Source: Glycocaulis sp. (lineage in GTDB: Bacteria; Pseudomonadota; Alphaproteobacteria; Caulobacterales; Maricaulaceae). From it: a DNA stretch of 64,000 nucleotides. Under the pieces are notes generated by a model that saw only the letters and a program-made list of their open reading frames with translations, had not been told where the DNA came from and searched no databases. How positions within the stretch are numbered: position 1 is the stretch's first letter; the number at the start of each line of letters is the position of its first letter. The position numbers and the translations under genes are program-made. Below, piece after piece: positions 39,547 to 55,950 of this stretch. The stretch spans positions 118,121 to 182,120 of the forward strand of contig JAIUMI010000004.1 of the NCBI GenBank assembly GCA_022565665.1, given 5' to 3'.

Positions 39547-39954
39547 TCAACCGCGCTGTGAACCGGGTTCGTGCGCCGCAATCGCGTTGATGATCGGGCA
39601 GTCTGGCCGCTCGTCGCCATCACACGCTCCGGCGAGGGTTTCCAGTGTACCGATCATCGCGTTCATCTCCGCCACGCGGGCGCGCAGCGCCGTTATATGC
39701 CCGTCTGTCAGACGTTTCACATCGGCGCTGGAGCGCGAGCGGTCCTGCCACAGGGCGAGCAGGGCCTTCACATCGGGCACCGGAAAGCCCAGCCGCCGGG
39801 CCGCACCGATAAAGCGCAGCGTGTGGACGTCCTGCGGCGTGTAGACGCGATAGCCATTGGCCGTGCGTCCCGGCTCGAGCAGGGCAATCTCCTCGTAATA
39901 GCGGATCATCTTGCGCGAAATGCCGGACGCTTTCGCCGCTTCGCCGATATTCAT
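39547..39954 (-). CDS. cueR: CueR-like MerR-family Cu(I)-responsive regulator
   Basis: A 135-residue MerR regulator: helix-turn-helix INIGEAAKASG-type start with KMIRYYEEIALL, a long dimerisation helix, and the metal-binding loop CDGDERPDC (Cys111, Cys119). The Ser in RSSADVK matches the CueR position that marks sensors of monovalent coinage metals. It lies 12 bases downstream of the glutaredoxin-MauE gene on the same strand, and a CueR-type operator sits before that gene, suggesting autoregulation of a two-gene operon. Confidence 0.88.
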   Translation of the reverse strand: MNIGEAAKASGISRKMIRYYEEIALLEPGRTANGYRVYTPQDVHTLRFIGAARRLGFPVPDVKALLALWQDRSRSSADVKRLTDGHITALRARVAEMNAMIGTLETLAGACDGDERPDCPIINAIAAHEPGSQRG

Positions 39955-39966
39955 CGCACCCGGTCC

Positions 39967-40713
39967 CTAAATCACGCCATACATGCGCAGCGGCATCCAG
40001 ATCGCCATGGCGATCATGATCAGGTTCTCGGTCAGCGAGATGAAGCCCAGAGGTACGCGGCTGTCCCCGCCCATGCACGCGCATTTCAGCTTGCGCCGCT
40101 CGATATAGACGGCCCTGAACACCGACACCGCGCCAATGGTGCCGATAAACAGCGCCACAGGGGAAGCCAGCCAGATCAGGCTGCCTGCTAGCATGAGAAG
40201 GCCTGCACCGGCCTCGGCGAACGGGTAGATGCGCCCATAGGGCACCCAGCGCCGCGCCAGCAGGTCGTAATTGAGGAACATGGTGGCGAAGGATTCGATA
40301 TTGGTCAGCTTCTGCAGGCCCAGCAGCACCATCGCGATGGCGATGAAATACTCCACCGTATGCAGGCCGACGATAGGCATGTTCGATTGCCAGGCGACGG
40401 CGAGGGCGAGCAGGGCGGCCACAGAGAAGAAGGTGATGACGGGCGTGTAGGTCGTTTCCTTCTTCGCCTTGGCGACGCCGAGATGCGCTTCCAGCGCCTC
40501 ATACCCGCCAATGCGCTTCCCATCGATGAAGGTCTGCGGCGTGGTCTTCACGCCGTGCTTTGCCTTGAAGGCCTCGGTTTCCTCGCGGCTGGTCAGGAGG
40601 TTGTCCTCAACTTCGTAGCCCTTGCTGCGTAGCAGGTGGCGGCTTTTCAGCCCGTAGGGGCATTTATGCTCGGGCGTTTCCATGCGGTAGAGCGTGGCGG
40701 TCTTGCCGGTCAT
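39967..40713 (-). CDS. Glutaredoxin-MauE/DoxX fusion membrane protein
   Basis: A 248-residue fusion. Residues 1-80 are glutaredoxin-like with single-cysteine motif CPYG (Cys18), TTPQTFIDGKRIGGYEAL; residues 95-248 form four transmembrane helices of the MauE/DoxX redox-associated type, with a CAC cysteine pair in KLKCACMGGDSRVPLGF before the last helix. MauE proteins help disulfide formation in exported proteins. With its CueR operator and cueR downstream, a role in copper-linked thiol chemistry at the membrane is likely but inferred. Confidence 0.8.
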   Translation of the reverse strand: MTGKTATLYRMETPEHKCPYGLKSRHLLRSKGYEVEDNLLTSREETEAFKAKHGVKTTPQTFIDGKRIGGYEALEAHLGVAKAKKETTYTPVITFFSVAALLALAVAWQSNMPIVGLHTVEYFIAIAMVLLGLQKLTNIESFATMFLNYDLLARRWVPYGRIYPFAEAGAGLLMLAGSLIWLASPVALFIGTIGAVSVFRAVYIERRKLKCACMGGDSRVPLGFISLTENLIMIAMAIWMPLRMYGVI

Positions 40714-40857: not shown

Positions 40858-41094
40858 GTGCGCGCGGAAAGCCACCTTCTCCAGTGGGAGCTTGCTAAGC
40901 GCGGCGTCGGCATTGTGACGACTCTCGAAATGATCGGAGATGCCGAACCGCCCATGCAGCGGGTCCTGCACGATTTTACAATGGTCCGCTCGATGTGGCT
41001 CGTGATGCACCGCGAACTGAGAACCAGCCGACGCATCAAAATGGTATTTGACTATCTCTACAGCGAGCTGAAGGCGGTCTGCCCTGATGCCTGA
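40858..41094 (+). pseudogene. 5'-truncated LysR-family regulator remnant
   Basis: About 78 codons match only the end of a LysR substrate-binding domain: LLQWELAKRGVGIVTTLEMI, GDAEPPMQRVL, WLVMHRELRTSRRIKMVFDYL. The helix-turn-helix and most of the effector domain are absent, and an in-frame TAA lies four codons upstream. The C-terminus and stop look normal. It is a deletion relic left between the cueR unit and the SigF-type promoter. It could still be translated from a GTG, but a function is unlikely. Confidence 0.75.
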
Positions 41095-41116
41095 TGCTGA
41101 GGCGAGGGGCAGCAGC

Positions 41117-41142
41117 TGTGTAACCAGACGCCACACTGACAC
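41117..41142 (+). promoter_or_regulatory. SigF-type ECF promoter of the thioredoxin-ccdA-sigF unit
   Basis: GTAACC, exactly 16 bases, then CGAA. This is the motif reported for Caulobacter SigF-dependent promoters, recalled from the literature. An identical -35/-10 pair with the same spacing lies before the bufferin precursor gene at 44504. It sits 66 bases before the thioredoxin start, which suggests the sigma factor drives its own operon. Confidence 0.8.
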
Positions 41143-41208
41143 GAACTGGCAGGTGCAAGCCGGTGCGCAAAGCCCGTACCGGCCGATCAACCGATTGGGA
41201 GACCTGCC

Positions 41209-41595
41209 ATGTTCATCAAGACCCTCGCCACCGGCGCTATTGGCGCTTTTGCCCTGGCCACATCCGCGCTGGCCAACGAACCCTTCACGCATGAGGCGTT
41301 TTCCGCAGCTCAGGCGCAGAACAAGCCGATCCTTGTCGAGGTCGCGGCTGACTGGTGCCCCACTTGCCGCCGTCAGGCCGCAGTGATTGGCTCCCTGCAA
41401 GATGAGCAGCGCTTCGGCGGATTGGCTGTGTTCCGGGTGGACTATGACGATCAGCGCGATGTGGCACGTCAGTTCCGCGCTACGACGCAGAGCACGCTGA
41501 TCGTGTTCCGCGGCGAAGACGAAACCGGGCGTGCGGCCGGTATCACCAGCGAAAGCGATATCGCCGCCCTGATCGCGACGGCCTACGCCGACTAA
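41209..41595 (+). CDS. Periplasmic thioredoxin-family protein
   Basis: A 128-residue exported protein with a signal peptide (cleavage after ALA, residue 22) and a thioredoxin domain with active site WCPTC (Cys50, Cys53), preceded by PILVEVAAD. It is close to the thiol-disulfide domain of DsbD (DsbD-gamma type). With ccdA 42 bases downstream, it is probably the periplasmic acceptor of electrons that CcdA carries across the membrane. First gene behind the SigF-type promoter. Confidence 0.85.
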   Translation: MFIKTLATGAIGAFALATSALANEPFTHEAFSAAQAQNKPILVEVAADWCPTCRRQAAVIGSLQDEQRFGGLAVFRVDYDDQRDVARQFRATTQSTLIVFRGEDETGRAAGITSESDIAALIATAYAD

Positions 41596-41637
41596 CGCTG
41601 AAGCGCTTCATCCCACACCCTGCCGGAGGCCTCGCCC

Positions 41638-42363
41638 ATGGGTCCTGAAAGCTATGTGTTCGGCTTCCTGGCCGGAACGCTGTCCATTCTCTCGCCCTGC
41701 ATCCTGCCGCTGCTGCCCATCGTGCTGGGCGCAGCGGCGAGCAAACACCGCTATGGGCCACTGGCTCTGGCGGCGGGGCTGACCGTCTCGTTCACCGCCG
41801 TGGGCCTGTTCGTAGCGACCATCGGCTTTGCCATCGGGCTTGATGGCGAGATCGTCCGGCAGGGTGGCGGGGTGTTGCTGGCGGCCATCGGCCTGGTGCT
41901 GCTGGTCCCGGTCTTCTCCGCCCGCTTCGCGACAGCGGCTGGCCCGGCCAGCAACTGGATCGAAAGCCGCCTCGGCGGTGTCGGCGATAATGAAGGCCTT
42001 GCCCCGCAATTTACCATGGGGCTGGTGCTGGGCGCCGTCTGGAGCCCGTGCGTAGGGCCGACCCTGGGCGCCGCCTCGCTCCTCGCCGCGCAAGGCCAGT
42101 CACTCGGGCAGGTATCGCTTGTCATGCTGCTGTTTGGTCTGGGTGCGGCTTTGCCGCTTGCCATTATCGGGCTGGCCTCGCGCGAGGTTCTGATGAAATG
42201 GCGTACCCGGATGCTCGCTGCCGGTTCGATGGGCAAGATGCTCCTCGGCGGCTTCCTGCTCCTGATCGGGCTCCTGGTCGCGACCGGCATGGACAAGGTG
42301 CTGGAAGCATGGCTGGTCGACTTGTCACCTGAATGGCTCACCCGGCTGACCACCAGCCTGTGA
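41638..42363 (+). CDS. ccdA: CcdA/DsbD-beta-like transmembrane thiol electron carrier
   Basis: A 241-residue protein with six transmembrane helices. Helix 1 carries SPCILPLLPIVLGAA and helix 4 carries SPCVGPTLGAASLLA, the paired cysteine-proline motifs that relay electrons from cytoplasmic thioredoxin to periplasmic partners. It ends with a helix and no periplasmic domain, so the upstream thioredoxin is the likely partner. CcdA proteins also serve cytochrome c assembly, but no ccm genes are nearby. Confidence 0.88.
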   Translation: MGPESYVFGFLAGTLSILSPCILPLLPIVLGAAASKHRYGPLALAAGLTVSFTAVGLFVATIGFAIGLDGEIVRQGGGVLLAAIGLVLLVPVFSARFATAAGPASNWIESRLGGVGDNEGLAPQFTMGLVLGAVWSPCVGPTLGAASLLAAQGQSLGQVSLVMLLFGLGAALPLAIIGLASREVLMKWRTRMLAAGSMGKMLLGGFLLLIGLLVATGMDKVLEAWLVDLSPEWLTRLTTSL

Positions 42364-42506
42364 GCTGCGCGCTCAACACGATGTGATCTGGAGAGTGAAC
42401 GAATATGCTGGCCGTTGCCGTCTCATCGCCTAGTCTGCCACGGGTGTCGGTGACACACAGCGCGCGCGCCCCCGGCGCCGCCTGGCAGGCATATGGGGAG
42501 AAGGCC

Positions 42507-43064
42507 GTGACAAGCGAGGCCGATGCCAAGCTGAGGGCGCTGATGGTGCTTGCCCAGGCCGGTGACAGGGCGGCCTATCGCAGCGTGCTCGACATCGCGC
42601 GGGCGCAGCTCGCAATCTATTTCCGCTACCGCCTGAAGGAAGACCCGGCCAGCGCAGACGATCTCGTACAGGAAACCCTGATCGCCATTCATACCAAGCG
42701 CGCCACCTATGATGCGCGCCACCCCTTCATGCCCTGGCTCTACGCCATCGCGCGCTACAAGCTGATCGATCATTACCGGCGCTACCGCGTGCGGCGTACC
42801 GAACCGGAAGAGGCTGCGGGCGATATCGCCGACGAAACCGACGATACCCGCGCCGCGATGGCCCGGCTCGATCTGGAGACCCTGCTCGCGCGCCTGCCTG
42901 CCGGTCAGGCCGAGGCCATACGCCGGACGAAGCTGAACGGGCAGAGCGTCAGCGAAACCGCCAGCGCCATGAATATCAGCGAGTCCCTCGTGAAGGTGAA
43001 TGTGCATCGCGGCCTGAAAGCGGCTGCATCCCTGGTGGGGCTGAAACAGGCGGACCGGTCATGA
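42507..43064 (+). CDS. sigF: ECF sigma factor, SigF-like
   Basis: A 185-residue sigma-70 family protein with region 2 (DDLVQETLIAIHTKRATYD, PFMPWLYAIARYKLIDHYRR) and region 4 (LPAGQAEAIRRTKLNGQSVSETASAMNISESLVKVNVHRGL). I chose a GTG start with GGAGAAGG upstream; a longer reading to an ATG about 100 bases earlier gives an unstructured extension. Its stop overlaps the start of the DUF1109 anti-sigma gene, the arrangement of Caulobacter sigF-nrsF, which responds to heavy metals. The local GTAACC-N16-CGAA promoters support this identity. Confidence 0.85.
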   Translation: MTSEADAKLRALMVLAQAGDRAAYRSVLDIARAQLAIYFRYRLKEDPASADDLVQETLIAIHTKRATYDARHPFMPWLYAIARYKLIDHYRRYRVRRTEPEEAAGDIADETDDTRAAMARLDLETLLARLPAGQAEAIRRTKLNGQSVSETASAMNISESLVKVNVHRGLKAAASLVGLKQADRS

Positions 43065-43696
43065 CGCGTCTTATCGATGAACTTGTTGACGGGCTTGAAC
43101 CGGCTCCGGCACGTCCGGCGATTGCCATATTCGGTCTGCCGCTGGCAGTGGCAGCGCTTCTGCCGCTGGCCGCGATCATCTTCTATTACGGCTTGCGCCC
43201 GGATATGGGCAGCGCCCTTGTGGCCATGCCCTTCTGGATCAAGCTGGCCCTGCCGGCCATTCTGGTCGCCGCGGCAGGTTTTGCGCTCGCGCGCCTGTCA
43301 CGCCCCGGCGCACCGGCCGGACCGGGCCTGATGATCGCGCTGGCCGCCATGGCCATTCTCGCCATGGCAGGCCTTGCCAGTCTTGCCAGCCTGCCCGCCG
43401 AGATGCGCCTGCCGGTGCTGCTGGGCCAGTCCTGGCAGAAATGCCTGATCAGCGTGGGCGTGTTCGGACTGGCTTTCCTTGCAGGCGGGTTCTGGGCGCT
43501 ACGGCGCATGGCGCCGGTACGCCCGCACCTTGCCGGATTTGCGCTGGGCCTTGTGGCCGGTGGTCTGGCCGCCGCGCTCTACTCGCTGGCATGCAATGAA
43601 GACGCCCTGCCGTTTCTCGCCAGCTGGTACCAGCTCGGCATACTGGCCGTCGCCCTGTTGGGCGCGCTGATAAGCCCACGTATCGTGCGCTGGTAG
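43061..43696 (+). CDS. nrsF: NrsF-like DUF1109 membrane anti-sigma factor
   Basis: A 211-residue protein with six transmembrane helices after a short cytoplasmic N-terminus (RLIDELVDGLEPAPA). Only two cysteines are present, Cys128 (SWQKCLIS) and Cys178 (LYSLACNED), 50 residues apart; this spacing equals that of the two cysteines needed for metal response in Caulobacter NrsF, as I recall. It would hold the sigma factor at the membrane until metal stress. ATGA overlap with the sigma gene. Confidence 0.85.
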   Translation: MTRLIDELVDGLEPAPARPAIAIFGLPLAVAALLPLAAIIFYYGLRPDMGSALVAMPFWIKLALPAILVAAAGFALARLSRPGAPAGPGLMIALAAMAILAMAGLASLASLPAEMRLPVLLGQSWQKCLISVGVFGLAFLAGGFWALRRMAPVRPHLAGFALGLVAGGLAAALYSLACNEDALPFLASWYQLGILAVALLGALISPRIVRW

Positions 43697-43734
43697 GGCG
43701 TGTCCGGCCAATTCCTGCACGGAAAGGCAAGCCC

Positions 43735-44481
43735 ATGACCAATCCGCTCAACCCACATCCTGCTACTGCAGAAAATGTCTACGCTCATGCCGGACTGAAG
43801 GCGGTGTTTATCAACTGCACACTCAAACCGCCCGCAGAGCCTTCCCACACGGGTCTGCTGATGGAAGCATCAGCGAAAATCATGCGCGAGGCGGGCGTCA
43901 GCGTGGACCTTATTCGTCCAACCGCCCATGCGATTGCGCCTGGTGTGCAACCCGATATGACAGAGCATGGCTGGACCCGCGATGACTGGCCACAATTGTG
44001 GCCCCGCATTCTGGACGCCGACATTCTGGTGATCGGCACCCCGATCTGGCTGGGTGAAGAGTCGTCACTGTGCCGCCTGATCATCGAGCGCCTCTACGCC
44101 ATGTCGGGAGAGCTCAATTCCAACGGTCAGTCCATCTATTACGGCAAGGTCGGCGGTGTGGTGGTGACCGGCAATGAGGACGGCATCAAGCACTGCGCGA
44201 TGTCGGTGCTCTATGCGCTGGGTCATCTGGGCTACACCATTCCGCCGCAGGCCGATTGCGGGTGGATCGGCGAGGCCGGACCAGGGCCCAGCTATGGGGA
44301 TGATGGCGCCGGGTTCGACAACGATTTCACCCAGCGCAACACCACGATAATGACGTGGAATCTCATGCACATGGCGAACCTGCTCAAACAGGCAGATGGC
44401 CTGCCATCCATGGGCAATGACCGCCGTGCCTGGCAGCAGGGGCATCGTTTCGGGTTTGAAAACCCGGAGTACAGGTCCTGA
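43735..44481 (+). CDS. Flavodoxin-fold NAD(P)H-dependent oxidoreductase
   Basis: A 248-residue flavodoxin-fold protein of the FMN reductase type. It shows AVFINCTLKPPAEPSHTGLLM for the FMN phosphate loop, VIGTPIWLGEESSLCRLIIERL, and KVGGVVVTGNEDGIKHC with a following PPQADCGWIGEAGPGPSY segment. It lies 38 bases after nrsF, so it is likely the last gene of the first SigF unit, and just before the second promoter. Substrate unknown; a reductant for the nearby iron enzyme or general quinone reduction are both possible. Confidence 0.75.
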   Translation: MTNPLNPHPATAENVYAHAGLKAVFINCTLKPPAEPSHTGLLMEASAKIMREAGVSVDLIRPTAHAIAPGVQPDMTEHGWTRDDWPQLWPRILDADILVIGTPIWLGEESSLCRLIIERLYAMSGELNSNGQSIYYGKVGGVVVTGNEDGIKHCAMSVLYALGHLGYTIPPQADCGWIGEAGPGPSYGDDGAGFDNDFTQRNTTIMTWNLMHMANLLKQADGLPSMGNDRRAWQQGHRFGFENPEYRS

Positions 44482-44503
44482 CGCAAAAAGTGCGGCCCGG
44501 CGT

Positions 44504-44529
44504 GTAACCCTTCCTCCTTCCGGTGCGAA
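44504..44529 (+). promoter_or_regulatory. SigF-type ECF promoter of the bufferin operon
   Basis: GTAACC, 16 bases, CGAA: the same motif and spacing as at 41117. It lies 57 bases before the start of the DUF2282 precursor gene and after the stop of the flavodoxin-fold gene, so the buf genes have their own sigma-dependent start. Confidence 0.85.
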
Positions 44530-44586
44530 CAGACAGGCGTGACCCGGTGCGGTCACATCCAGTCCAACACCGGAGGAGACACTCCC

Positions 44587-44874
44587 ATGAAGTTCACTCA
44601 CGCTCTGTTCGCGGCTGCAGCAGCTACCACGCTTGGTGCAGCAGCGGCTCACGCAGATGAAGAAGAAATGCCCAACGAGGATGGTATGGAGCGCTGTTAC
44701 GGCATCGCTCTGGCTGGCGAAAATGACTGCGCGGCCGGTCCCGGCACGACGTGCGCGGGCACCTCTACGGTCGATTTCCAGGGCAATGCCTGGACGCTGG
44801 TCCCCAAGGGCACCTGCGAGGACATCCAGACGCCTTACGGTCCCGGCTCGCTCGAGGAAATCGAGCGTCCGTAG
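44587..44874 (+). CDS. bufA: DUF2282 bufferin precursor peptide
   Basis: A 95-residue exported peptide: Sec signal with cleavage near AHA-DEE (residue 23), then a core with four cysteines, Cys37 ([10 protein letters not shown]), Cys48 (ENDCAAG), Cys56 (TTCAGTS) and Cys77 (PKGTCEDI). This is the DUF2282 pattern. In known bufferins, an MNIO enzyme converts conserved core cysteines to thiooxazole-type groups that bind copper in the periplasm. A GGAGGAG ribosome site fixes the start. It is followed by its presumed modification genes and preceded by a SigF-type promoter. Confidence 0.88.
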
Positions 44875-44892
44875 TCCGCAGCAGCTTTCCGG

Positions 44893-45780
44893 ATGCATCC
44901 TATGGCTCATCATCCCCCCGCGATGGCTGATCCCTGCCCCCCCAGCGCCGGGATTGGCTTGAAGCCCGCCCATTACCGTGACGTCCTGTCCGTTAATGCG
45001 TCCGGTTTCTGGGTCGAGGTGCATCCGGAAAACTACATGACGCCCGGCGGGCCGCGCCATCAATGGCTGGCTGCCATCCGCGAGGCGCACCCGTTATCGC
45101 TTCACGGTGTGGGCTTGTCTCTCGGTGGCCTTGACCGGCCCAGCCGGGTGCATTTGCGGGCCCTGCGCCTGCTTGCCGAGCGTTATGCGCCTTTCGAGAT
45201 CTCCGAGCATCTTGCCTGGTGCGCACACGATGGCGAGCACTTCGCCGATCTTTTACCGCTTCCCTATACACAGGCCGCGCTGAAGCGCTTCTGCGATCAT
45301 GTCGACGAAACCCAGGAGGTGCTCGGGCGGCGCATACTCATAGAGAATCCTGCACTTTATGTGGCGCTGAACGGGGAGATGGGTGAGGCCGAGTTCCTCG
45401 CCGAAACCGTGCAGCGCACCGGGTGCGGACTGCTGCTGGACGTGAATAATGTCCATGTCACTGCGCACAATACCGGCCGCGACCCTTGCGCCTTCATCAA
45501 TGACCTGCCAGCGGCCGCGATTGGCGAGATTCACCTGGCCGGACATGCTCCTGATACGCGCGAACCTGGCTTGCTGATCGATACGCACGGCACGGCCATC
45601 TCCGAGAATGTCTGGGCATTATATGCAAAGGCTCTCGACCGGTTCGGCGCCGTACCCACGCTCATCGAGCGCGACAATGACATCCCGCCCTTCGCTGATC
45701 TCATGGCCGAGCGCAACCGCGCTGCCGGGATGATGGCGGCGGGACAGGCTGCAACACGCCGGGAGGCAGCCCATGTCTGA
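44893..45780 (+). CDS. bufB: DUF692 multinuclear non-heme iron oxidase (MNIO)
   Basis: A 295-residue TIM-barrel protein of the MNIO family. Candidate metal ligands lie at the ends of strands: EVHPEN (42-47), SLHGVGLSLG (His71), FEISEHLAW (102-109), LIENP (Glu151), LLDVNNVHV (Asp183, Asn185), EIHLAGH (His214, His218), DTHG (Asp230, His232) and ERD (259-261). MNIOs oxidise cysteines of RiPP precursors, and BufA is the clear substrate. Two in-frame ATGs within ten codons make the exact start uncertain. The 3' end overlaps the DUF2063 gene. Confidence 0.9.
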   Translation: MHPMAHHPPAMADPCPPSAGIGLKPAHYRDVLSVNASGFWVEVHPENYMTPGGPRHQWLAAIREAHPLSLHGVGLSLGGLDRPSRVHLRALRLLAERYAPFEISEHLAWCAHDGEHFADLLPLPYTQAALKRFCDHVDETQEVLGRRILIENPALYVALNGEMGEAEFLAETVQRTGCGLLLDVNNVHVTAHNTGRDPCAFINDLPAAAIGEIHLAGHAPDTREPGLLIDTHGTAISENVWALYAKALDRFGAVPTLIERDNDIPPFADLMAERNRAAGMMAAGQAATRREAAHV

Positions 45781-46537
45781 TACCGCAGACATCGGGTTCT
45801 ACACGGCGTTCGCAGCGATGGTGGCAGGCCGTGATGCGCCGGACCTGCCGGCATTCCTGGCAGACAGTCCGGCGCCGGGCCTTGCCGTTTACCGCAACAA
45901 TGTGGCGCGCGGCGCCGTGGAAACGCTGGCCAGCGCCTATCCGGCTGTACAGCGTCTGGTAGGTGAACGCTTCTTCGCCGCCATGGCAGGGGCTTTTCGT
46001 GACGTTCAGCCGCCCCGCAGTCCCGTCCTGGCTCTTTATGGCGATGGTTTTGACAGCTTCATCGAACAATTCGAACCCGCCAACAGCCTGCCCTACCTGC
46101 CCGATATCGCACGGCTGGACAGGGCATGGCTGCTCGCTCATCACGCGCCGGACCGGCCAGCTCTCGAGATGCGGGACATCACCGCTGCAGGCAATCGCGC
46201 CCTCGCGGGCTTACGCTTCGGCCCGCATCCGGCAAGCCAGATACTCGCCTTCGACCTGCCCGCCTATTCCATCTGGCGTACCAACCGCGAAGACCGTCAG
46301 GTCAGCCGGATACGGCTTGCCGATGGCGCGGAGACGGCCCTTGTTTGGCGGCAATCCGGAGAGGTGCGCCACCGCAAGACCAGCGCCGGGGAACATGTGC
46401 TCGTCAATGCGCTCTTCTCCGGCGCTGCCGTTGAGGAAGCCTGCGTGGCCGCTCACGCAATAGCCCCCGGCAGCGATCCTGTTTCTACAGTTTTCACCCT
46501 GATCCGGGCCGGTGTTTTTGAAAGGAAGAGTTCATGA
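45773..46537 (+). CDS. bufC: DUF2063 RiPP recognition/partner protein
   Basis: A 254-residue protein with the DUF2063 N-terminal domain: GLAVYRNNVARGAVETLASAYPAVQRLVGERFF, DSFIEQF and LPYLPDIARLDRAWLLAHHA. In bufferin operons, DUF2063 proteins pair with the DUF692 enzyme and are thought to present the precursor. The start overlaps the bufB stop by eight bases and the stop overlaps the doxX start (ATGA), so all three are coupled. Confidence 0.88.
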   Translation: MSDTADIGFYTAFAAMVAGRDAPDLPAFLADSPAPGLAVYRNNVARGAVETLASAYPAVQRLVGERFFAAMAGAFRDVQPPRSPVLALYGDGFDSFIEQFEPANSLPYLPDIARLDRAWLLAHHAPDRPALEMRDITAAGNRALAGLRFGPHPASQILAFDLPAYSIWRTNREDRQVSRIRLADGAETALVWRQSGEVRHRKTSAGEHVLVNALFSGAAVEEACVAAHAIAPGSDPVSTVFTLIRAGVFERKSS

Positions 46538-47121
46538 CAAGCTCCAACCCGGTTGCGCCGTCGCAGCCTGCCAGGATGTTCGCAACGCTTCACCGGCTTC
46601 ATGGCAAGGCCGCTTTCCTGGCCGAACGCCTTGTCGCGCACGACCTGCTTTCCCTGTTCATGCGGATCACGATTGCGGGCGTATTCTGGCGCTCATTCCT
46701 CACCAAGGTCGAGACCTTCGGCGTCTGGCGCTATGTCGAGGTCATCAATGATTTCGAGATCGAGAAGTTTCACATACGCCTGCCCGAGCTGCCGCTGGAG
46801 ATGAAGGCAACGACGCTGGCGCAGTTTCGTGGTGATTTCACCTTGCCGCTGCTGCCTGCCGAGCTCGCGGCCTGGATGGCGACCCTTGGCGAGTTCATTC
46901 TGCCGATCCTGCTGGTTATCGGTCTGTTCACCCGGTTTGCCGCGGCAGGTTTGCTGGTGATGACACTCGTCATCCAGATTTTCGTCTTTCCCGATGCCTG
47001 GTGGGCAAGTCATGCGCTTTGGGCGGCCATGCTGCTCTTCATCATTGGCCGCGGGCCCGGCCGGCTGTCGCTCGATCATCTCCTCGGCGCGGTTCTGACC
47101 AAGCCGGGTATGGCGAAATGA
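46534..47121 (+). CDS. DoxX-family membrane protein of the buf operon
   Basis: A 195-residue membrane protein with a cytoplasmic N-terminus and about four helices: LFMRITIAGVFWRSFLTKVE, WMATLGEFILPILLVIGLF, AGLLVMTLVIQIFVFPDAWW and ALWAAMLLFIIGRGPGRLSLD. This is the DoxX pattern, and DoxX genes often close DUF692/DUF2063 operons. The biochemical role in bufferin systems is not known; quinone-linked redox chemistry is possible. It ends 50 bases before the convergent LysR gene. Confidence 0.85.
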   Translation: MTSSNPVAPSQPARMFATLHRLHGKAAFLAERLVAHDLLSLFMRITIAGVFWRSFLTKVETFGVWRYVEVINDFEIEKFHIRLPELPLEMKATTLAQFRGDFTLPLLPAELAAWMATLGEFILPILLVIGLFTRFAAAGLLVMTLVIQIFVFPDAWWASHALWAAMLLFIIGRGPGRLSLDHLLGAVLTKPGMAK

Positions 47122-47171
47122 AGCCGTCGCGGCTCAGGATTGCAGGCCAAGTGCCTAAGATAATCAGATCA

Positions 47172-48059
47172 TCAGGCGACGTTGGCACTCCAGTCGATGG
47201 CCTGTGCAGATTTGATAGCGATGGATACCGGGCGGCTGTGTGGTCTGCCCGCGACCGTGGCCATGGCGATATGGCGTGACACTTCGGGACTGGTGAGAGG
47301 CCGTGTCAGCACGCCGTCCACCATCGGCAGGAATTGCGGCATTACGGTGCAGCCCAGACCTGCTGCCACCATGGTCTGGACCCAGTCCTCGCGTTCGGTG
47401 ACATAGCGGACCTGCAGATCATCATAGGAGATGGAGCCGCCAAGCCTGACAAGATTGCCTGGAAATTCGCAATGCAGACGTTTGACATAAGGCTCGCCGA
47501 TAAGCTCCTTCAACGGCACCGTCTCCATTTTTTCAAAGCGATGGCCGGCCCCGAACGCGATATGGAAGGGTTCCCGGTATAGCGGAGTCACACGAAGACG
47601 CTCGCCATAATCCATCGTGCTGACGATGGCGACGTCGATCTCGCCGGCCAGCAGGGCGTCGCTGAGTTCCTCGCAATGCGATTCCCACAGCACGAGTTCG
47701 AGATTGGGCGCAGCCGCGCGAAGGGCACGCAGATAGGTAGTCAATTGCCGTGCGCCCATTGACGAGAAAATTCCCATCTTGAGCTTGGCTTCCGACAGGG
47801 TCCGGTATTTTTCCGCGTCCGTTCTTGCGGCTTCCAGTGCCTGCTGCGCCACGGAAAAGTGCTGCTCCATCAGTCGGCCAAGATCCGTCAGGTGGGTCAT
47901 GCGTCGTTCACGACGGAACAGTTGGCCGCCCAGTTCTTCCTCAAGCTTGTGAATCGCCTTGGTCAGCGTGGGAACGGACACCTCGCACTGTTCTGCAGCG
48001 CGCGAGAAGTTCAGTGTCTCGCACATGGTCAGAAAATACCGGATTTTGCGTGCTTCCAT
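47172..48059 (-). CDS. LysR-family transcriptional regulator
   Basis: A 295-residue LysR protein with N-terminal winged helix (MEARKIRYFLTMCETLNFSRAAEQCEVSVPTLTKAIHKLE) and substrate-binding domain (KLKMGIFSSMGARQL, EIDVAIVSTMDY, MVAAGLGCTVMPQFLP). I chose the ATG at the family start, seven codons after an upstream Met. It lies 47 bases downstream of the TIGR03032 gene on the same strand, so both may be one transcript divergent from the autotransporter. The effector is unknown. Confidence 0.88.
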   Translation of the reverse strand: MEARKIRYFLTMCETLNFSRAAEQCEVSVPTLTKAIHKLEEELGGQLFRRERRMTHLTDLGRLMEQHFSVAQQALEAARTDAEKYRTLSEAKLKMGIFSSMGARQLTTYLRALRAAAPNLELVLWESHCEELSDALLAGEIDVAIVSTMDYGERLRVTPLYREPFHIAFGAGHRFEKMETVPLKELIGEPYVKRLHCEFPGNLVRLGGSISYDDLQVRYVTEREDWVQTMVAAGLGCTVMPQFLPMVDGVLTRPLTSPEVSRHIAMATVAGRPHSRPVSIAIKSAQAIDWSANVA

Positions 48060-49463: not shown

Positions 49464-49668
49464 AACGGCTACTTGCTCAATTGCATCCCAATGTCTGACT
49501 TGTCCTCGGGGCGCTCTCGACACTGGTCGACGGCGTGGAGTGGCGGATTGCGGCTCCTGCCGGCTCTGCCCTGCCAGTTCGCGGCGAGGTCTTTTGCGTA
49601 GTCAGCGCATCTCGCCGGCGAATGGCCAGACGCATTACGCGGCGCGCACGCCGCCAGGAGAGGCTGAG

Positions 49669-52600
49669 ATGGGAATGCAATCATTACGCCGGAAGGCTTT
49701 GCTGGTGAGCACGATGCTCGCGGGAGCGTATGCCGGCTATGGCAACCGCGCTTACGCGCAGCAGGTTTGCACCCATCAGAGCGGAACGACCTATCTCTGC
49801 GACGGCGCCACCATACTCGAACAGACTTTTTTCGGGGAAAACATTATCGTCGTCACGGGCGATAATCTTGAGGTTGACACCACAGCGCCGGGCAGTTTCG
49901 GCGGCAATGCCTTCAGCCTGGGCGACAGCATCTTCGGCATTTCCGGTGCGGTGTCCTTTATCGATATCGACGGCGCGACGCTCACCGCGGGACAAGATTA
50001 CGCGGCGCTGAGCATTTTTGGTGGGGGCGACTACAACTATTACGGCACGCTCTATCCCGGAAGCATTACCGTCTATACCAACGGCACGCTGCTGGGCGGC
50101 CATACGGGCCTGTACGCCTATAACAATGGTGGTACCGGCTCGGTAGACATCACCGTCAATGGCAGCGTGACCGGCACGGGCTATTACGGCATCCGCGCAC
50201 GCAACGCCAACGCAGGGGGCGATCTCATCATCACCACGGGCGCCGGGTCATCGGTTTCTGGTGGTTACAGTGGCATCCTGGCGGAAAATAACGGACAGGG
50301 CGCCTTGGCGATCACCGCAAATGGCGATGTTACCGGCGCGAGCTATGTCGGCATATCTGCGCAAAATCACGGCACGGATCTCACCGTGACGACAGGCACG
50401 GGCACCACGGTGGCCGGCGGCGAAGTTGGCATTGCGGCCGTTAATTCCGGAAGCGGCCAACTGACAGTCACGGCTGGCGGCGACGTAACCGGCACCGCCT
50501 ATTACGGCATTGTGGCACAAAACCAGGGCACCGGGCTTTCCGTGACGACGCACGCAGGGAGCAGCGTGGTTGGCGGCTTCAGCGGTATTGAAGCGCGCAA
50601 TTTCGGCAGTGGCGCGCTGGATATCACGGCCGACGGCGACGTAACCGGGTTGAATGGCTACGGTATCCGCGCACAGAACAACGGCACCATCCTTACGGTG
50701 ACGGCCGGCACAGGGATATCTGTTTCCGGCGACCTCTTTGGCATCCATGCCCAGAATTACGGTACCGATCTGATCGTGGCCACCGGCACCGGCAGCACCG
50801 TAACAGGCAACGGGGGCGCAGGCATCGTGGCGCTCAACCATGGCAGCGGGCTGCTGGCCGTCACGGCTGGGGGCGATGTAGCTGGCGCCGTCTACTACGG
50901 CATTCTCGCGCAAAACCAGGGTGCCGACCTTTCCGTGACGACCGAGGCGGGGAGCAGCGTCGTCGGCGACTTCAACGGCATTGAAGCGCGTAACTTTGGC
51001 AGCGGGATGCTGACGGTTTCTGCTGACGGGGATGTCACTGGTTTAAGTGGCTACGGTATCCGTGCCCGGGGTTACGGTACCGGCCTCGTTGTGACGACGG
51101 GGGCGGAAAGCGCGATTTCCGGCGATACTACCGGCATCTACGCCAGCAATACCGGCAGCGGCGCCGTGACCATTGATGCCCAGGGCGATGTCGAGGCGAC
51201 CAATGCTTCTGGAACAGGCATTCACGCCGCCAATTTCACCGGTGTCGATGCTGATGGAAACAGCATCAATATCACCACCGGGGGCACCATCGAAGGGACG
51301 GGGCTCGGCATTTACGCCGTCAATCATGCATCCGGCGCCGTGAACATCATCTCTACCGGGGATGTCCTCAACAGCAGTTCCGGCATTCTTGCCTACAATA
51401 CTTCGCTCAACGGCACCGGCACCAGCATCAGCATTGAGGCGGCGCGGGTCACCACCCAGCTCAGCGCGATCTACGCGCTCAATAATGGTACCGGTGCGCT
51501 ATCGATTGTCACCACGGGCGATATAACCAGCATGAACGGAAGGGGCATCGTCGCGTTCCAAGCTGGCAGCGACGTTGATATCGTCACGCTGGCCGGCACG
51601 ACGGTTAGCGGCGGCATGCGCGGCATCTCGAGCATCAATGGCGGCACAGGTGCGCTGACCATTATGGCAGGCGGAGGGGTCTACGGGACCGGTAACAACA
51701 GCAGAGGCATCTTTGCCTGGAACACTGTCGCCAGCACCACCGATCTCACAGTCACCACGGCGGCCGGAACCACAATCAGCAGCGTGATGGGTGGTATAAG
51801 CGCTCTCAACAGTGGCAGCGGCGCCGTGACCATCAATGCCCAGGGCGATGTCCATGCGACACATGCCTATTCCACCGGCATCGAAGCGTTCAACAACAAT
51901 GGCGTCGATGCCGACGGCAACAGCATCAACCTCAATGCAGCCGGAACAGTGACCGGGGGATGGGCCGGCATTTACGCCCATAATTATGGCCCCGGCGCCG
52001 TGAACATCGTTTCCACGGGAGATGTTTCCAGCGATGTGGGCGCCGGCATCTTTGCGTACAATGTAGCCGGCACCGATCTCAACATCACGGCTGCCCAGAC
52101 CACCGGCTATCGCGCAGGTATCGATGCGATCCAGGCCGGTACCGCACGCCTGACGATCCTGGCCACCGGCAATGTTTCGGCATTGGCGGCCTACGGCCCG
52201 TCGATCGGCATCTGGGCACGGAGCGACAGCAGCGGCAGCGGCATCGACATCACCACAGCGGCAAACACGGCCGTCAATGCAGGAGCAACCGGTATCTCCG
52301 CGCGCAATAACGGCGCTGGCGCGCTGACGGTTACCGCTGGCGGCGATGTTACGGGAACCGGAAATACCGGCATCTATACGCGCAATCAGGGGACAGATCT
52401 TATCGTGACCACCGGCGCGGGCGTCGCCGTAAGTGGTGGCGATTTCGGTATTGCTTCGATAAACGACGGAACCGGCGAACTGACGGTGACGGCTGATGGC
52501 GACCTTACCGGCAGTAATTTCTACGGGATTTTCGCGCAGAATTCCGGCACGGATCTGACCATCACCCTCGGTATGGGTGCGGCAGTTACCGGAGGGTACG

Positions 52601-55600
52601 ACGCTATCGAAGCCCGCAATTTCGGTAGCGGCGCGCTGACCATAACGACGGACGGAAATATTACGGGCCTCAGCCGATCCGGCATTTTCGCGCGGAGCTT
52701 CGGCAGCGGCATCAGTATAGCCGCCGCGCTGGGCGCCAACATCACCGGCGCCACGCACGGCATCCGTGCGCAAAACAGCGGTGCTGGCGTGATCGAGATT
52801 GATGTCGCGGCCGGAAGCTCGGTGACGAGCACAGGCAGCGGATACGCCATAGACATCTCGGGCAGCGAGGCCATCGTCAGCGTCGCTGGCGCGCTGAACG
52901 GCGGGGCAGGCGGCGCCATCCGGTTCGACGATTTCGATAACCAGCTGACCTTGCACACCGGCGCCACGATCAATGGCGATGTGGTTGGCGGCGCGCTGGA
53001 CGACAGCCTGTCCCTTGTGGGCGTGGGAACCGGCACATTCAATATCGGCCAGCTCCAGAATTTCGAGATTCTTGCCAAGGATGGGACCGGTCACTGGATC
53101 CTCACCGGCGCCAACACTGATGCCATGAGCTTTGCCCTGAATGCGGGCCGGCTCACAGTAGATGCCGCTCTCGGTTTCACGGACATTGCCGTAAGCGGCG
53201 GTGCCATTCTGGGCGGGACGGGCGCCATTGGCGGCGATGTGACGGTGCTGGACGGGGGCATCATCGCGCCGGGTGCCAGCACCGGCACGCTGACAGTAGG
53301 CAATCTGTTCCTGTCTTCGGGCTCGGTGCTGGACTTCGAGCTGGGCATGGCGGGTGTGGTCGGCGGCGGGGTCAATGACCTCATCATCGTCGGCAATGAT
53401 CTGGTGCTCGACGGTGTTTTGAATATTACCGATGTCGGCGGGTTCGGTCCCGGCGTCTACGCGCTGATCACCTATGGTGGCGACCTGACCGATAACGGTC
53501 TTGAGTTCGGCATCCTGCCGGGTGGTGTCACCGCGAACGAGCTGTTGATCCAGACCGCGGTAACCGGAGAGATCAATCTTCTCTCCACCTTTGGAGCCAC
53601 ACTGGGCTTCTGGGATGGCGCCGACCCGGCATTGCACGACAATGGCGTCATTGATGGCGGCCAGGGTGTCTGGAACACGGTCAACCGCAACTGGACCGGT
53701 ATGGATGGCGACGTCAACGGTTCGTGGGATGGCGGTTTCGCCGTATTCCAGGGTGTAGCAGGCACGGTGACGGTTGAAGGCGGCGTCGACTTTGCCGGCT
53801 TGCAGATACGCACCGATGGATATGTGATTGAGAGCGGTGCTGGCGGCGTCCTCAACATGACCGGGGCCGAGACCATCCTGCGCGTGGACGCTGGTGTGAC
53901 CGGCGAGGTGTCGGCGGCCATCGCCGGGGAGGGGACGCTGGTCAAGACCGACCTGGGCACGCTGATCCTCACCGGCGGCAATATCTATACCGGCGGGACA
54001 GAGGTGCGCAGCGGCACGCTCATCGGCTCTACCAGCTCGATTATCGGCGATATCGCCAATGACGGTGTGGTGGTGTTCAGTCAGGCGGATGATGCGACAC
54101 TGGATCAGGCACTTTCCGGCGATGGCCTGTTCCGCTTTACCGGCGGGGCGCAGTTCACGCTGGCGGGCGCGAACACCTATTCGGGCGGGACGGACGTCAT
54201 CGGCTCCGGCCTTGTGCTGACGGCCAGCACCAGCGCCGGCACGGGCGGCATCGCGCTGAGCAACGCCAGCCTAACCTATACTGACGGGATCTCGGTGGCC
54301 AACGTCCTGACTCTGTCGGGCAGTAACAGTCTTTCCGTCGCTTCAGGCTCAGCCACCCATGCCGGATCGCTTGCCGGTTCGGGTGATTTCACGCTGGGCG
54401 GCCCTGGCACGCTGGTGTTTGCCGGCAATGGTTCGGCCTTTACCGGCCACACGACGATTACCGGCAATGTGCTGGTCAACGGCGTGCTCGGCGGCACAAT
54501 CGAAGTCGCCGATGGCGGGGTCTTGCGCGGCTTTGGCACGCTGGGCTCGACCACCCTGCTCTCCGGCTCCACCATCGCGCCCGGCAATTCGGTCGGCACG
54601 CTGACCATCGATGGCGATCTGATCTTCGAGAGCGGTTCGGTCTATGAGGCCACAGCCCTGCCCGATGGCAGCTCTGACCTTATCGATGTGAGCGGCACGA
54701 TCACCATCAATGGCGGTTCGGTGCTGGTGGTGGGCACCGATAGCGGATTTGCCGCCAATACAAGCTATAACCTGCTGACGGCTGCCGGCGGCATTAGCGG
54801 GGAATTCGACAGCATCTCCACCAATTTCGCCTTCCTGAACCCGATCCTGTCGCTGACGGGCAACGGCCTGTTGCTGACACTTCAGCGCAATGATGTCGAC
54901 TTCGTCCATTACGCGCAGACCAATAACCAGGGTTCGGCAGCCCGCGCCGCCGACAGTCTCGGGTCAGGTAACCCGCTCTGGGATGCGCTGGTCCTGCTGG
55001 ATGAGGCTTCAGCGCCGGGTGCCTTTGAAGGCCTGTCGGGCGAAATTCACGCCACGCACCGCCAGCTTCTGCTGGACGAGACCGTCCATACCCGCCGGGC
55101 CATCAACTCGCGTCTGGCAGCCGCGGGTAGCGAAGAGGCTGGTTCCGCCTGGATCAGCGGTCATTTCGGCGGCGCGCAGATGGATGCCCGCACGGGCGTG
55201 TCTGGCGTGTCCGCAGACAGCTCCGGGGCGATATTCGGTATCGATATGCCGGTACATGAGAGCGCGCGTATCGGCGTCATGGCCAGCTTCACCGAGGCCA
55301 GCTTCCACCTGGCCGGACCCGGGCAGGGCGCCGGCACCACGCAAAGCCGGTCGCTGGGCCTCTATGGCGGCCTGCAGCTGGGCGCGCTGGGGGTAAGTGG
55401 CGGGGCTATCTATGGCTGGCATGATCTGACCACCCGCCGGGCCGTTACTTTCCCCGGCTTCAACGAGCACATCGCCTCCAGCCACAGCGCCGACACGATC
55501 CAGCTCTTCGGTGAGGCCAGCCTTGCCGGCCCTGCCGGCTTCGAGCCCTTCCTCTCGCTGGCCCATATGCGCCTTGATACCGGGAACTTCACCGAAACCG

Positions 55601-55950
55601 GCGGCGCGGCTGCGCTCGTGATCGACAGCGAGACCCGCCAGATGACGCAAGGCACGCTGGGCAGCCGCCTCTCCCATGACTGGCAGGCAGCAGGCACACA
55701 TCTGCGCTTTGCAGGCTCGCTCGGCTGGCGGCGCGTGTTCAGCGGCCATCGCCAGTTCGTCTCCGGCGATCTGTCGGGTGCGCCGGTCTTCTTCGAAGGC
55801 AATGGCATCGACCGTGACGCCGCTGCCATCGAAGCGGGCATCCATATCGAGCCGGTAAACCGTATCAGCCTGGAAATCGGCTATGCCGGCGAGATCGGAT
55901 CAAACGCCCGCAATCATGGTGCACAGTTCCGCGCAAAATGGGGCTTTTAG
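49669..55950 (+). CDS. Giant autotransporter adhesin-like protein
   Basis: A protein of about 2,093 residues: signal peptide (cleavage after AYA near residue 30), a long Gly/Thr/Asn-rich beta-helical passenger (to about residue 1,800) with units such as GDVTGTGYYGI and SGALTVTAGG, at least two autotransporter-associated repeats (GTLVKTDLGTLILTGG, FTLGGPGTLVFAGNG), and a C-terminal beta-barrel from about residue 1,825 ending in WGF. An AGGAGAGG ribosome site supports the start; longer upstream readings have no signal peptide. Likely displayed on or released from the outer membrane; the ligand is unknown. Confidence 0.9.
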   Translation: MGMQSLRRKALLVSTMLAGAYAGYGNRAYAQQVCTHQSGTTYLCDGATILEQTFFGENIIVVTGDNLEVDTTAPGSFGGNAFSLGDSIFGISGAVSFIDIDGATLTAGQDYAALSIFGGGDYNYYGTLYPGSITVYTNGTLLGGHTGLYAYNNGGTGSVDITVNGSVTGTGYYGIRARNANAGGDLIITTGAGSSVSGGYSGILAENNGQGALAITANGDVTGASYVGISAQNHGTDLTVTTGTGTTVAGGEVGIAAVNSGSGQLTVTAGGDVTGTAYYGIVAQNQGTGLSVTTHAGSSVVGGFSGIEARNFGSGALDITADGDVTGLNGYGIRAQNNGTILTVTAGTGISVSGDLFGIHAQNYGTDLIVATGTGSTVTGNGGAGIVALNHGSGLLAVTAGGDVAGAVYYGILAQNQGADLSVTTEAGSSVVGDFNGIEARNFGSGMLTVSADGDVTGLSGYGIRARGYGTGLVVTTGAESAISGDTTGIYASNTGSGAVTIDAQGDVEATNASGTGIHAANFTGVDADGNSINITTGGTIEGTGLGIYAVNHASGAVNIISTGDVLNSSSGILAYNTSLNGTGTSISIEAARVTTQLSAIYALNNGTGALSIVTTGDITSMNGRGIVAFQAGSDVDIVTLAGTTVSGGMRGISSINGGTGALTIMAGGGVYGTGNNSRGIFAWNTVASTTDLTVTTAAGTTISSVMGGISALNSGSGAVTINAQGDVHATHAYSTGIEAFNNNGVDADGNSINLNAAGTVTGGWAGIYAHNYGPGAVNIVSTGDVSSDVGAGIFAYNVAGTDLNITAAQTTGYRAGIDAIQAGTARLTILATGNVSALAAYGPSIGIWARSDSSGSGIDITTAANTAVNAGATGISARNNGAGALTVTAGGDVTGTGNTGIYTRNQGTDLIVTTGAGVAVSGGDFGIASINDGTGELTVTADGDLTGSNFYGIFAQNSGTDLTITLGMGAAVTGGYDAIEARNFGSGALTITTDGNITGLSRSGIFARSFGSGISIAAALGANITGATHGIRAQNSGAGVIEIDVAAGSSVTSTGSGYAIDISGSEAIVSVAGALNGGAGGAIRFDDFDNQLTLHTGATINGDVVGGALDDSLSLVGVGTGTFNIGQLQNFEILAKDGTGHWILTGANTDAMSFALNAGRLTVDAALGFTDIAVSGGAILGGTGAIGGDVTVLDGGIIAPGASTGTLTVGNLFLSSGSVLDFELGMAGVVGGGVNDLIIVGNDLVLDGVLNITDVGGFGPGVYALITYGGDLTDNGLEFGILPGGVTANELLIQTAVTGEINLLSTFGATLGFWDGADPALHDNGVIDGGQGVWNTVNRNWTGMDGDVNGSWDGGFAVFQGVAGTVTVEGGVDFAGLQIRTDGYVIESGAGGVLNMTGAETILRVDAGVTGEVSAAIAGEGTLVKTDLGTLILTGGNIYTGGTEVRSGTLIGSTSSIIGDIANDGVVVFSQADDATLDQALSGDGLFRFTGGAQFTLAGANTYSGGTDVIGSGLVLTASTSAGTGGIALSNASLTYTDGISVANVLTLSGSNSLSVASGSATHAGSLAGSGDFTLGGPGTLVFAGNGSAFTGHTTITGNVLVNGVLGGTIEVADGGVLRGFGTLGSTTLLSGSTIAPGNSVGTLTIDGDLIFESGSVYEATALPDGSSDLIDVSGTITINGGSVLVVGTDSGFAANTSYNLLTAAGGISGEFDSISTNFAFLNPILSLTGNGLLLTLQRNDVDFVHYAQTNNQGSAARAADSLGSGNPLWDALVLLDEASAPGAFEGLSGEIHATHRQLLLDETVHTRRAINSRLAAAGSEEAGSAWISGHFGGAQMDARTGVSGVSADSSGAIFGIDMPVHESARIGVMASFTEASFHLAGPGQGAGTTQSRSLGLYGGLQLGALGVSGGAIYGWHDLTTRRAVTFPGFNEHIASSHSADTIQLFGEASLAGPAGFEPFLSLAHMRLDTGNFTETGGAAALVIDSETRQMTQGTLGSRLSHDWQAAGTHLRFAGSLGWRRVFSGHRQFVSGDLSGAPVFFEGNGIDRDAAAIEAGIHIEPVNRISLEIGYAGEIGSNARNHGAQFRAKWGF
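50449..51082 (+). repeat. Duplicated ~240-base super-repeat in the autotransporter
   Basis: The segments at about 50449-50688 and 50842-51082 encode near-copies: both contain a YYGI-AQNQG stretch, then AGSSVVG, GIEARNFGSG and DGDVTGL-GYGIRA. They are larger copies built from a basic unit of about 52 residues that recurs through the first half of the passenger. Duplication by unequal recombination is likely. Confidence 0.75.
51154..52026 (+). repeat. Second duplicated 213-base block in the autotransporter
   Basis: Segments 51154-51366 and 51814-52026 are the same length and encode near-copies: GSGAVTI-AQGDV, GVDADGNSIN and GAVNI-STGDV occur in both. They differ in sequence from the other super-repeat, so at least two separate internal duplications built this passenger. 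Confidence 0.75.

Follow-up and report, generated by a model that had tools for sequence, protein, structure and literature searches.

A Thioredoxin-CcdA Pair Joined to sigF-nrsF and a Bufferin-1 Cluster in Glycocaulis: A Probable Sigma-F-Type Regulon of Two Transcription Units

Introduction

In Caulobacter, both bufferin operons are controlled by SigF, an extracytoplasmic function (ECF) sigma factor (PMC3511200), and the SigF regulon is induced by copper, a sigF mutant being copper-sensitive (PMC8224329). During the maturation of bufferin 1 in this organism, BufBC turns central cysteine (Cys) residues of BufA into copper-binding thiooxazoles, and the peptide acts in the periplasm; a sigma factor, NrsF, and DoxX are listed in bufferin-1 clusters (PMC12452194). 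In Bradyrhizobium, bll1027 (CcdA-like) and bll1026 (thioredoxin, Trx) were 89.5- and 92.4-fold up in an anti-sigma mutant (PMC3420878). The present work concerns a stretch of 64,000 nucleotides from Glycocaulis sp. (assembly GCA_022565665.1, contig JAIUMI010000004.1, positions 118,121 to 182,120; hereafter the window), in which a trx-ccdA pair (the thiol module), a sigF-nrsF pair, and a bufferin-1 cluster lie together.

The best explanation of this locus, to which a probability of roughly 0.6 is given, is a copper- or metal-stress regulon of the Caulobacter sigma-F type, consisting of two transcription units, with the thiol module belonging first of all to the sigma factor and its anti-sigma factor.

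Promoters and Transcription Units

The nine genes trx, ccdA, ECF sigma, nrsF, FMN_red, bufA, bufB, bufC, and doxX occupy positions 41209-47121, all on the + strand, and are separated by gaps of at most 42 bp or overlap, except for 105 bp before bufA. All nine products match named Pfam families above the cut-offs, which bears out the gene content, place, and single strand given in a preliminary description of this DNA made from the sequence alone. The ECF sigma gene is followed by, and paired with, a gene for an anti-sigma factor with an NrsF domain.

The sigma-F motif of Caulobacter, GTAACC-N16-CGAA, was derived by mapping 5′ ends and searching for a shared motif (PMC3511200). It occurs exactly twice in the whole window (at 41120 and 44504), on the coding strand and before trx and bufA, while 0.03 occurrences are expected from shuffled sequence. 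A looser pattern applied to positions 41000-47300 recovers the same two sites and no others. In addition, a simple promoter and terminator scan of the region detected neither a promoter of the sigma-70 type nor, between the units, a terminator-like site on the + strand. Among three genomes of the genus, the window included, the promoter boxes before trx are invariant and 10 of the 16 spacer bases vary; the boxes before bufA are identical in the congener G083.

Since no site lies between ccdA and the sigma gene, sigF-nrsF are probably transcribed through trx-ccdA, and FMN_red is probably the last gene of this first unit. The second sigma-F promoter at 44504-44529 argues for two transcription units rather than one operon. 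One sigma factor thus very probably drives both units, the thiol module included. The preliminary description had placed everything in one operon under one ECF sigma factor; the shared control, predicted from two exact promoters whose boxes are kept in congeners, stands for both bufferin and thiol genes, and the single operon gives way to what are probably two units.

Recurrence of the Thiol Module with NrsF and Bufferin

Three sets of genomes were surveyed. In the order sample (150 genomes), NrsF was found in 54 and DUF2282, the family of the bufferin-1 precursor, in 33. For the class sample (385 genomes), the CcdA profile was built from four NrsF-linked CcdA proteins and so favors that subfamily; 16 of the 46 matches, most of them in frames of more than 500 codons (DsbD-like), were excluded from the Trx-CcdA count and 30 were kept. 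The named-genome sample comprises the best 80 CcdA relatives listed (L286 and L287 are near-identical and both counted). Short contigs hide neighbors in many loci, and Fisher tests take genomes as independent, kinship aside.

In the class sample, NrsF is present in 21 of 22 genomes with Trx-CcdA versus 56 of 363 others (p 3e-15). Conversely, Trx-CcdA occurs in 21 of 77 NrsF genomes versus none of 85 genomes that have DUF2282 but no NrsF. The order trx-ccdA is seen in 22 of the best 30 class-sample CcdA matches, and 7 of these 30 loci have NrsF no more than 5 kb away. The exact motif precedes trx-ccdA in 8 of 21 NrsF genomes and in none of the 9 others; shuffling predicts 0.005 loci in total, although the contrast between NrsF and non-NrsF genomes reaches only p 0.07. 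In the named-genome sample, trx stands in front of ccdA at 73 of the best 80 loci, the other 7 having no Trx by the thioredoxin profile. The looser site precedes trx in 15 of these 73 loci, as compared with 0.2 by shuffling, 0 for the reversed pattern, and 1 on the other strand. Judged from these sequence counts, the thiol module goes primarily with the sigma/anti-sigma pair and less with bufferin, to which it is linked mainly through that pair.

Bufferin genes nevertheless recur beside the module. Of the best 80 CcdA loci, 11 have an MNIO gene at a distance of at most 10 kb, 14 have NrsF, and 9 have both (p 4e-7), and MNIO is found in 7 of the 43 loci with full flanks; by a rough estimate from the density of DUF2282, chance would place MNIO near CcdA in well under one locus in 80. 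Phyllobacterium calauticae, Aminobacter ciceronei, and a metagenome-assembled genome (MAG) of Bradyrhizobium share, on one strand, a sigma-F-type site (spacer 15 or 16) followed by bufABC-doxX-sigF-nrsF-trx-ccdA. A Devosia MAG has such a site followed by bufABC-doxX-trx-ccdA on one strand, and a Hyphomicrobium MAG has trx-ccdA-bufB-bufC. Within the window's genus (four genomes), G083 repeats the whole cluster in the same order with both promoters, and G063 is without NrsF, this CcdA, and DUF2282. Outside the window's family, G153 combines bufferin genes with sigF-nrsF and trx-ccdA, and its sigma-F-type sites point in both directions, and G127 has a promoter-like site, trx-ccdA, a MauE/DoxX-like gene, and sigF-nrsF but no DUF2282. 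On a quick tree of 99 CcdA proteins, 12 changes are required to account for the link to bufferin (14 rows); it has thus been formed or broken many times, although short contigs inflate the count. The co-occurrence search proposed in the preliminary description, for CcdA/thioredoxin with sigF-nrsF and DUF2282-DUF692, therefore finds the combination again in several genera.

Several observations weigh against the proposed regulon, or against bufferin as the specific partner in it. The congener G044 has promoter-trx-ccdA-sigF-nrsF without DUF2282 or MNIO. Among NrsF genomes, DUF2282 is about as common with the module as without it (15 of 21 vs. 35 of 56, p 0.59), as is MNIO (16 of 21 vs. 38 of 56), and 69 of the best 80 CcdA loci have no MNIO within 10 kb, many contigs being short. 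With NrsF in the locus, the looser site stands before trx in 4 of 14 cases, not more often than at the remaining loci (11 of 59), in part because some of these NrsF loci have their leading site before bufA. In Caulobacter, as far as the available text of PMC3511200 goes, the published SigF regulon contains no thioredoxin-CcdA, which is therefore not indispensable to a bufferin system. Finally, the window's own genome holds the exact motif 4 times and a reversed control pattern 6 times; it is thus placement, not count, that is telling, and a genome-wide prediction of the regulon by motif was dropped for this reason. Of the two exact matches outside the window, one falls within a gene resembling TonB receptors and the other is next to a gene resembling thioredoxin reductase (by eye). 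A bufferin-specific model is weakened by the DUF2282 and MNIO counts and partly revived by the one-strand operons of bufferin with trx-ccdA.

Some loci carry other cysteine-rich or bufferin-like genes. Secreted, cysteine-rich proteins with an NPC repeat, to which neither Pfam nor NCBIfam gives a name, are encoded after sigma-F-type sites and before trx-ccdA (L165 8814-9104 and L166 9701-10828), and one of them has a cytochrome P460-like tail just under the cut-off. BufA2 (bufferin 2) is encoded about 4 kb from the module in L172 (12344-12595, above the NCBIfam cut-off) and a BufA2-like protein in L169 (6212-6574, below it), each with a sigma-F-type site in front; it was reported that sigma/NrsF genes occur in Buf1 but not Buf2 clusters (PMC12452194). 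The cysteine-rich neighbors in L165, L166, and L172, although too few to count, are suggestive.

Alternative Explanations

It is possible, if rather unlikely, that Trx-CcdA feeds periplasmic methionine sulfoxide reductases (Msr) in general thiol and methionine repair and that bufferin is merely co-regulated. Such a role fits Bradyrhizobium, where EcfF-OsrA controls Bll1027, Bll1026, and three Msr genes and electron supply to an Msr, Blr7043, was proposed (PMC3420878). It also fits the exact motif at MsrB of G127, the GTAACT-N16-CGAA at the lipoprotein-like MsrB of the congener G083, the lipoprotein-like MsrA encoded in the window's genome, and the exported-looking MsrB of L168, L169, and L170 (DsbD-type, beside sigF-nrsF). 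On the other hand, msrA/msrB occur in none of the best 80 CcdA loci as far as the contigs reach, and in 24 other stretches (window, L090-L092, L162-L181) msr is found only in L168-L170 and in L179 (CcdA-Trx order). Moreover, three Msr genes were identified in the window's own genome, and the 3.3-3.5 kb surrounding each of them holds neither an exact nor a loose motif. In L168, L169, and L170, a DsbD-type transporter, exported-looking MsrB, MsrA, and sigF-nrsF stand together, perhaps as a related methionine-repair regulon. For YedY/MsrP, the genus yields weak partial matches only.

A second alternative, an improbable one, is that Trx-CcdA reduces the cysteine pair of NrsF and thereby shuts the response off, as a periplasmic counterpart of the sigma-R/RsrA/thioredoxin system. 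The module follows NrsF across genomes, with the genes for both often close together, and the window's NrsF keeps both Cys128 and Cys178. OsrA C179 was reported to be needed for the H2O2 response (PMC3420878), whereas diamide raised Caulobacter SigF targets no more than twofold (PMC3511200). Cys128 is near-universal (118 of 120 rows), while residue 178 is mostly Cys or His, with few Glu or Asp. With 70 of the 77 NrsF genomes typed at this residue and 40 more stretches added for the genome-level test, the module is carried by 16 of 32 genomes with H-type NrsF versus 4 of 38 others (p 4e-4). As many as 16 of the 20 typed module carriers are thus H-type, the two-Cys NrsF of the window being a minority state. 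An initial comparison, in which 13 of 22 module-linked NrsF proteins but 0 of 55 unlinked ones had His, pointed the same way but was biased, its unlinked set being the highest-scoring matches. The enrichment means that many partners cannot form a Cys pair, which argues against a disulfide-reset role. Comparing the Cys and His types could help to tell whether it is metal or the oxidation of thiols to which anti-sigma factors of this kind respond.

A chance neighborhood of two independent operons, although module and bufferin are separable in G044, is very hard to reconcile with matching promoters on both units, the same order in G083, and recurrence in other families with different gene orders.

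Proposed Function

To the observed genes, promoter sequences, recurrence, and statistics, the preferred reading of a sigma-F-type regulon adds copper induction, an electron flow, and a client, all of which we infer. Stress on the membrane anti-sigma factor NrsF, as proposed for Caulobacter, would free the sigma factor, which would drive unit 1 (trx-ccdA-sigF-nrsF-FMN_red) and unit 2 (bufABC-doxX). As in Caulobacter, BufBC would convert BufA cysteines to copper-binding thiooxazoles, and the peptide would work in the periplasm. Electrons passed through the inner membrane by CcdA would reach the secreted thioredoxin, and this protein would keep periplasmic thiols usable while copper oxidizes them. 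With low certainty, the likeliest clients here are bufferin thiols, followed by other copper-oxidized periplasmic thiols.

It had been suggested that the module would keep bufferin cysteines or partner proteins reduced. That it exists to keep bufferin reduced is not supported as such, given G044, which keeps the module without DUF2282 and MNIO, the p value of 0.59, and the disulfide formed by two of the four bufferin-1 cysteines (PMC12452194, figure legend), so that reduction could apply to part of bufferin at most. A bufferin-reducing role of Trx-CcdA remains plausible. To bind copper in an oxidizing compartment, the thiols of bufferin have to be kept usable, and no electron source named for them was found in the papers searched; the recurrent, sigma-F-linked thioredoxin-CcdA is a concrete candidate. 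As the pairing of bufferin with a thiol reductase recurs in other bacteria, it probably matters for surviving copper.

Features of the Locus and Its Neighbors

Table 1. Promoters and genes of the Glycocaulis locus (positions in the window; Pfam figures are score/cut-off).
Feature	Position	Strand	Evidence
Sigma-F-type promoter GTAACC-N16-CGAA	41120..41145	+	exact match, 63 bp before trx
trx, secreted thioredoxin, WCPTC, Ser95 at cis-proline site	41209..41595	+	PF00085 47.1/23.5; signal peptide by eye
ccdA, DsbD-type transmembrane thiol transporter	41638..42363	+	PF02683/PF13386; DsbD_TM 42.9/27.1
ECF sigma factor, SigF kind	42405..43064	+	sigma-70 regions 2 (48.4/24) and 4; NF009191 173.4/171
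nrsF, anti-sigma factor (former DUF1109), Cys128 and Cys178	43061..43696	+	PF06532 188/26.8, E 2.4e-55
FMN_red, flavodoxin-fold protein	43735..44481	+	PF03358 46.9/24
Second sigma-F-type promoter	44504..44529	+	exact match, 57 bp before bufA
bufA, bufferin-1 precursor (DUF2282), Cys37, 48, 56, 77	44587..44874	+	PF10048 89.9/22.4; signal peptide by eye
bufB, MNIO maturase (DUF692)	44893..45780	+	MbnB_TglH_ChrH PF05114 329.1/25, E 2.3e-98; NF050167 355.6/310
bufC, DUF2063 partner protein	45773..46537	+	PF09836 70.7/27.2
doxX, DoxX membrane protein	46534..47121	+	PF07681 54/23.6

The bufferin identity assumed in the preliminary description is confirmed as bufferin-1 by a DUF2282 precursor with four cysteines, invariant in an alignment of 12, by the adjacent MNIO, which NCBIfam names a bufferin maturase above its cut-off, and by the DUF2063 partner. 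The NCBIfam equivalogs NrsF (140/300), HvfC, and HvfX are matched below cut-off only. bufA starts at 44587, the listed open reading frame beginning at an in-frame start upstream (44539); the start codon of the sigma factor is uncertain (42405 or further in). The FMN_red gene also adjoins the cluster in the congener G083 but in none of the other loci scanned, and its protein matched one solved chain, 5mji ("BRAMP domain protein").

With regard to the thiol module, it combines a DsbD_TM domain, two membrane cysteines (Cys21 and Cys138, invariant in an alignment of 14), and a CxxC thioredoxin that is exported by eye. Another DsbD_TM protein is encoded elsewhere in this genome by a frame of 782 codons. 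Among 84 thioredoxin rows (82 distinct), every one selected for its similarity to the window's protein, WCxxC is kept, WCPTC being commonest, and the cis-proline column holds Ser in 77, Ala in 5, Gly in 2, and Pro in none. The window's protein departs from classical thioredoxins, with their cis-proline opposite CxxC, in having Ser95, which lies directly before strand 96-101 in the AlphaFold model (pLDDT 88.7). Its nearest solved fold is 5zf2. It was reported that this proline is conserved more strongly than CxxC itself and, from work of 2007, that it may prevent metal binding at CxxC (PMC2757866). Metal binding by the window's thioredoxin may accordingly be imagined. It is a decidedly speculative idea that the protein is a copper-tolerant or copper-binding thiol carrier in which Ser95 lets CxxC hold Cu(I) and which, with CcdA, reduces and loads or reloads bufferin thiooxazole thiols; if so, bufferin would not chelate copper just once but would serve as a buffer that the cell actively maintains and can recharge.

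Upstream of the promoter, positions 40858-41094 (+) hold a remnant of a LysR-like regulator (by eye; Pfam assigns it no family), which aligns over 76 of its 78 codons, with 88% identity, to the final quarter of a gene of 306 aa in the same place in G083 (L091 4538-5458). Divergent from the trx unit, a MerR-family regulator beside a glutaredoxin-MauE fusion (39547-40713, -) has the look of another operon concerned with thiols or metals. Downstream, 49540-55950 (+) encodes a 2136-aa autotransporter (beta-domain) with a passenger that looks repetitive by eye.

Comparison with Known Systems

The combination is real, recurrent, and made of known parts, and no description of it was found in a literature search, which returned no paper joining bufferin with thioredoxin or CcdA. 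The words "thioredoxin", "CcdA", and "DsbD" occur 0 times in the main text of PMC12452194 (supplements aside), and "thioredoxin" 0 times in the available text of PMC13097082. The earlier suggestion that the combination may be undescribed thus holds for bufferin with thioredoxin-CcdA, while control of thioredoxin-CcdA by a sigma/DUF1109 pair had already been reported in Bradyrhizobium (PMC3420878). The finding joins two bodies of work, on the EcfF-OsrA redox regulon and on bufferin clusters.

DsbD/CcdA-thioredoxin systems share the DsbD_TM transporter and the secreted CxxC thioredoxin, but the window's family has Ser, Ala, or Gly in place of the cis-proline. Edwardsiella 5zf2 and 5zpv, one of which is titled an effector by its depositors, are, among solved structures, nearest to the window's thioredoxin in fold and sequence and have the same QST at the cis-proline site. 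The EcfF-OsrA system of Bradyrhizobium is alike in that an ECF16 sigma factor and a DUF1109 anti-sigma factor control genes for a CcdA-like protein and a periplasmic thioredoxin. It differs in that this pair is not beside ecfF and is listed CcdA first, and in having been studied with H2O2 and Msr genes, DUF2282/DUF692 being unmentioned in the available text (PMC3420878). The SigF-NrsF bufferin-1 system of Caulobacter is alike in its ECF sigma factor and NrsF, its motif, and its bufABC-doxX target (PMC3511200, PMC8224329, PMC12452194); as far as the available texts describe it, that regulon includes YedY/MsrPQ and contains no thioredoxin-CcdA (PMC3511200, PMC8224329).

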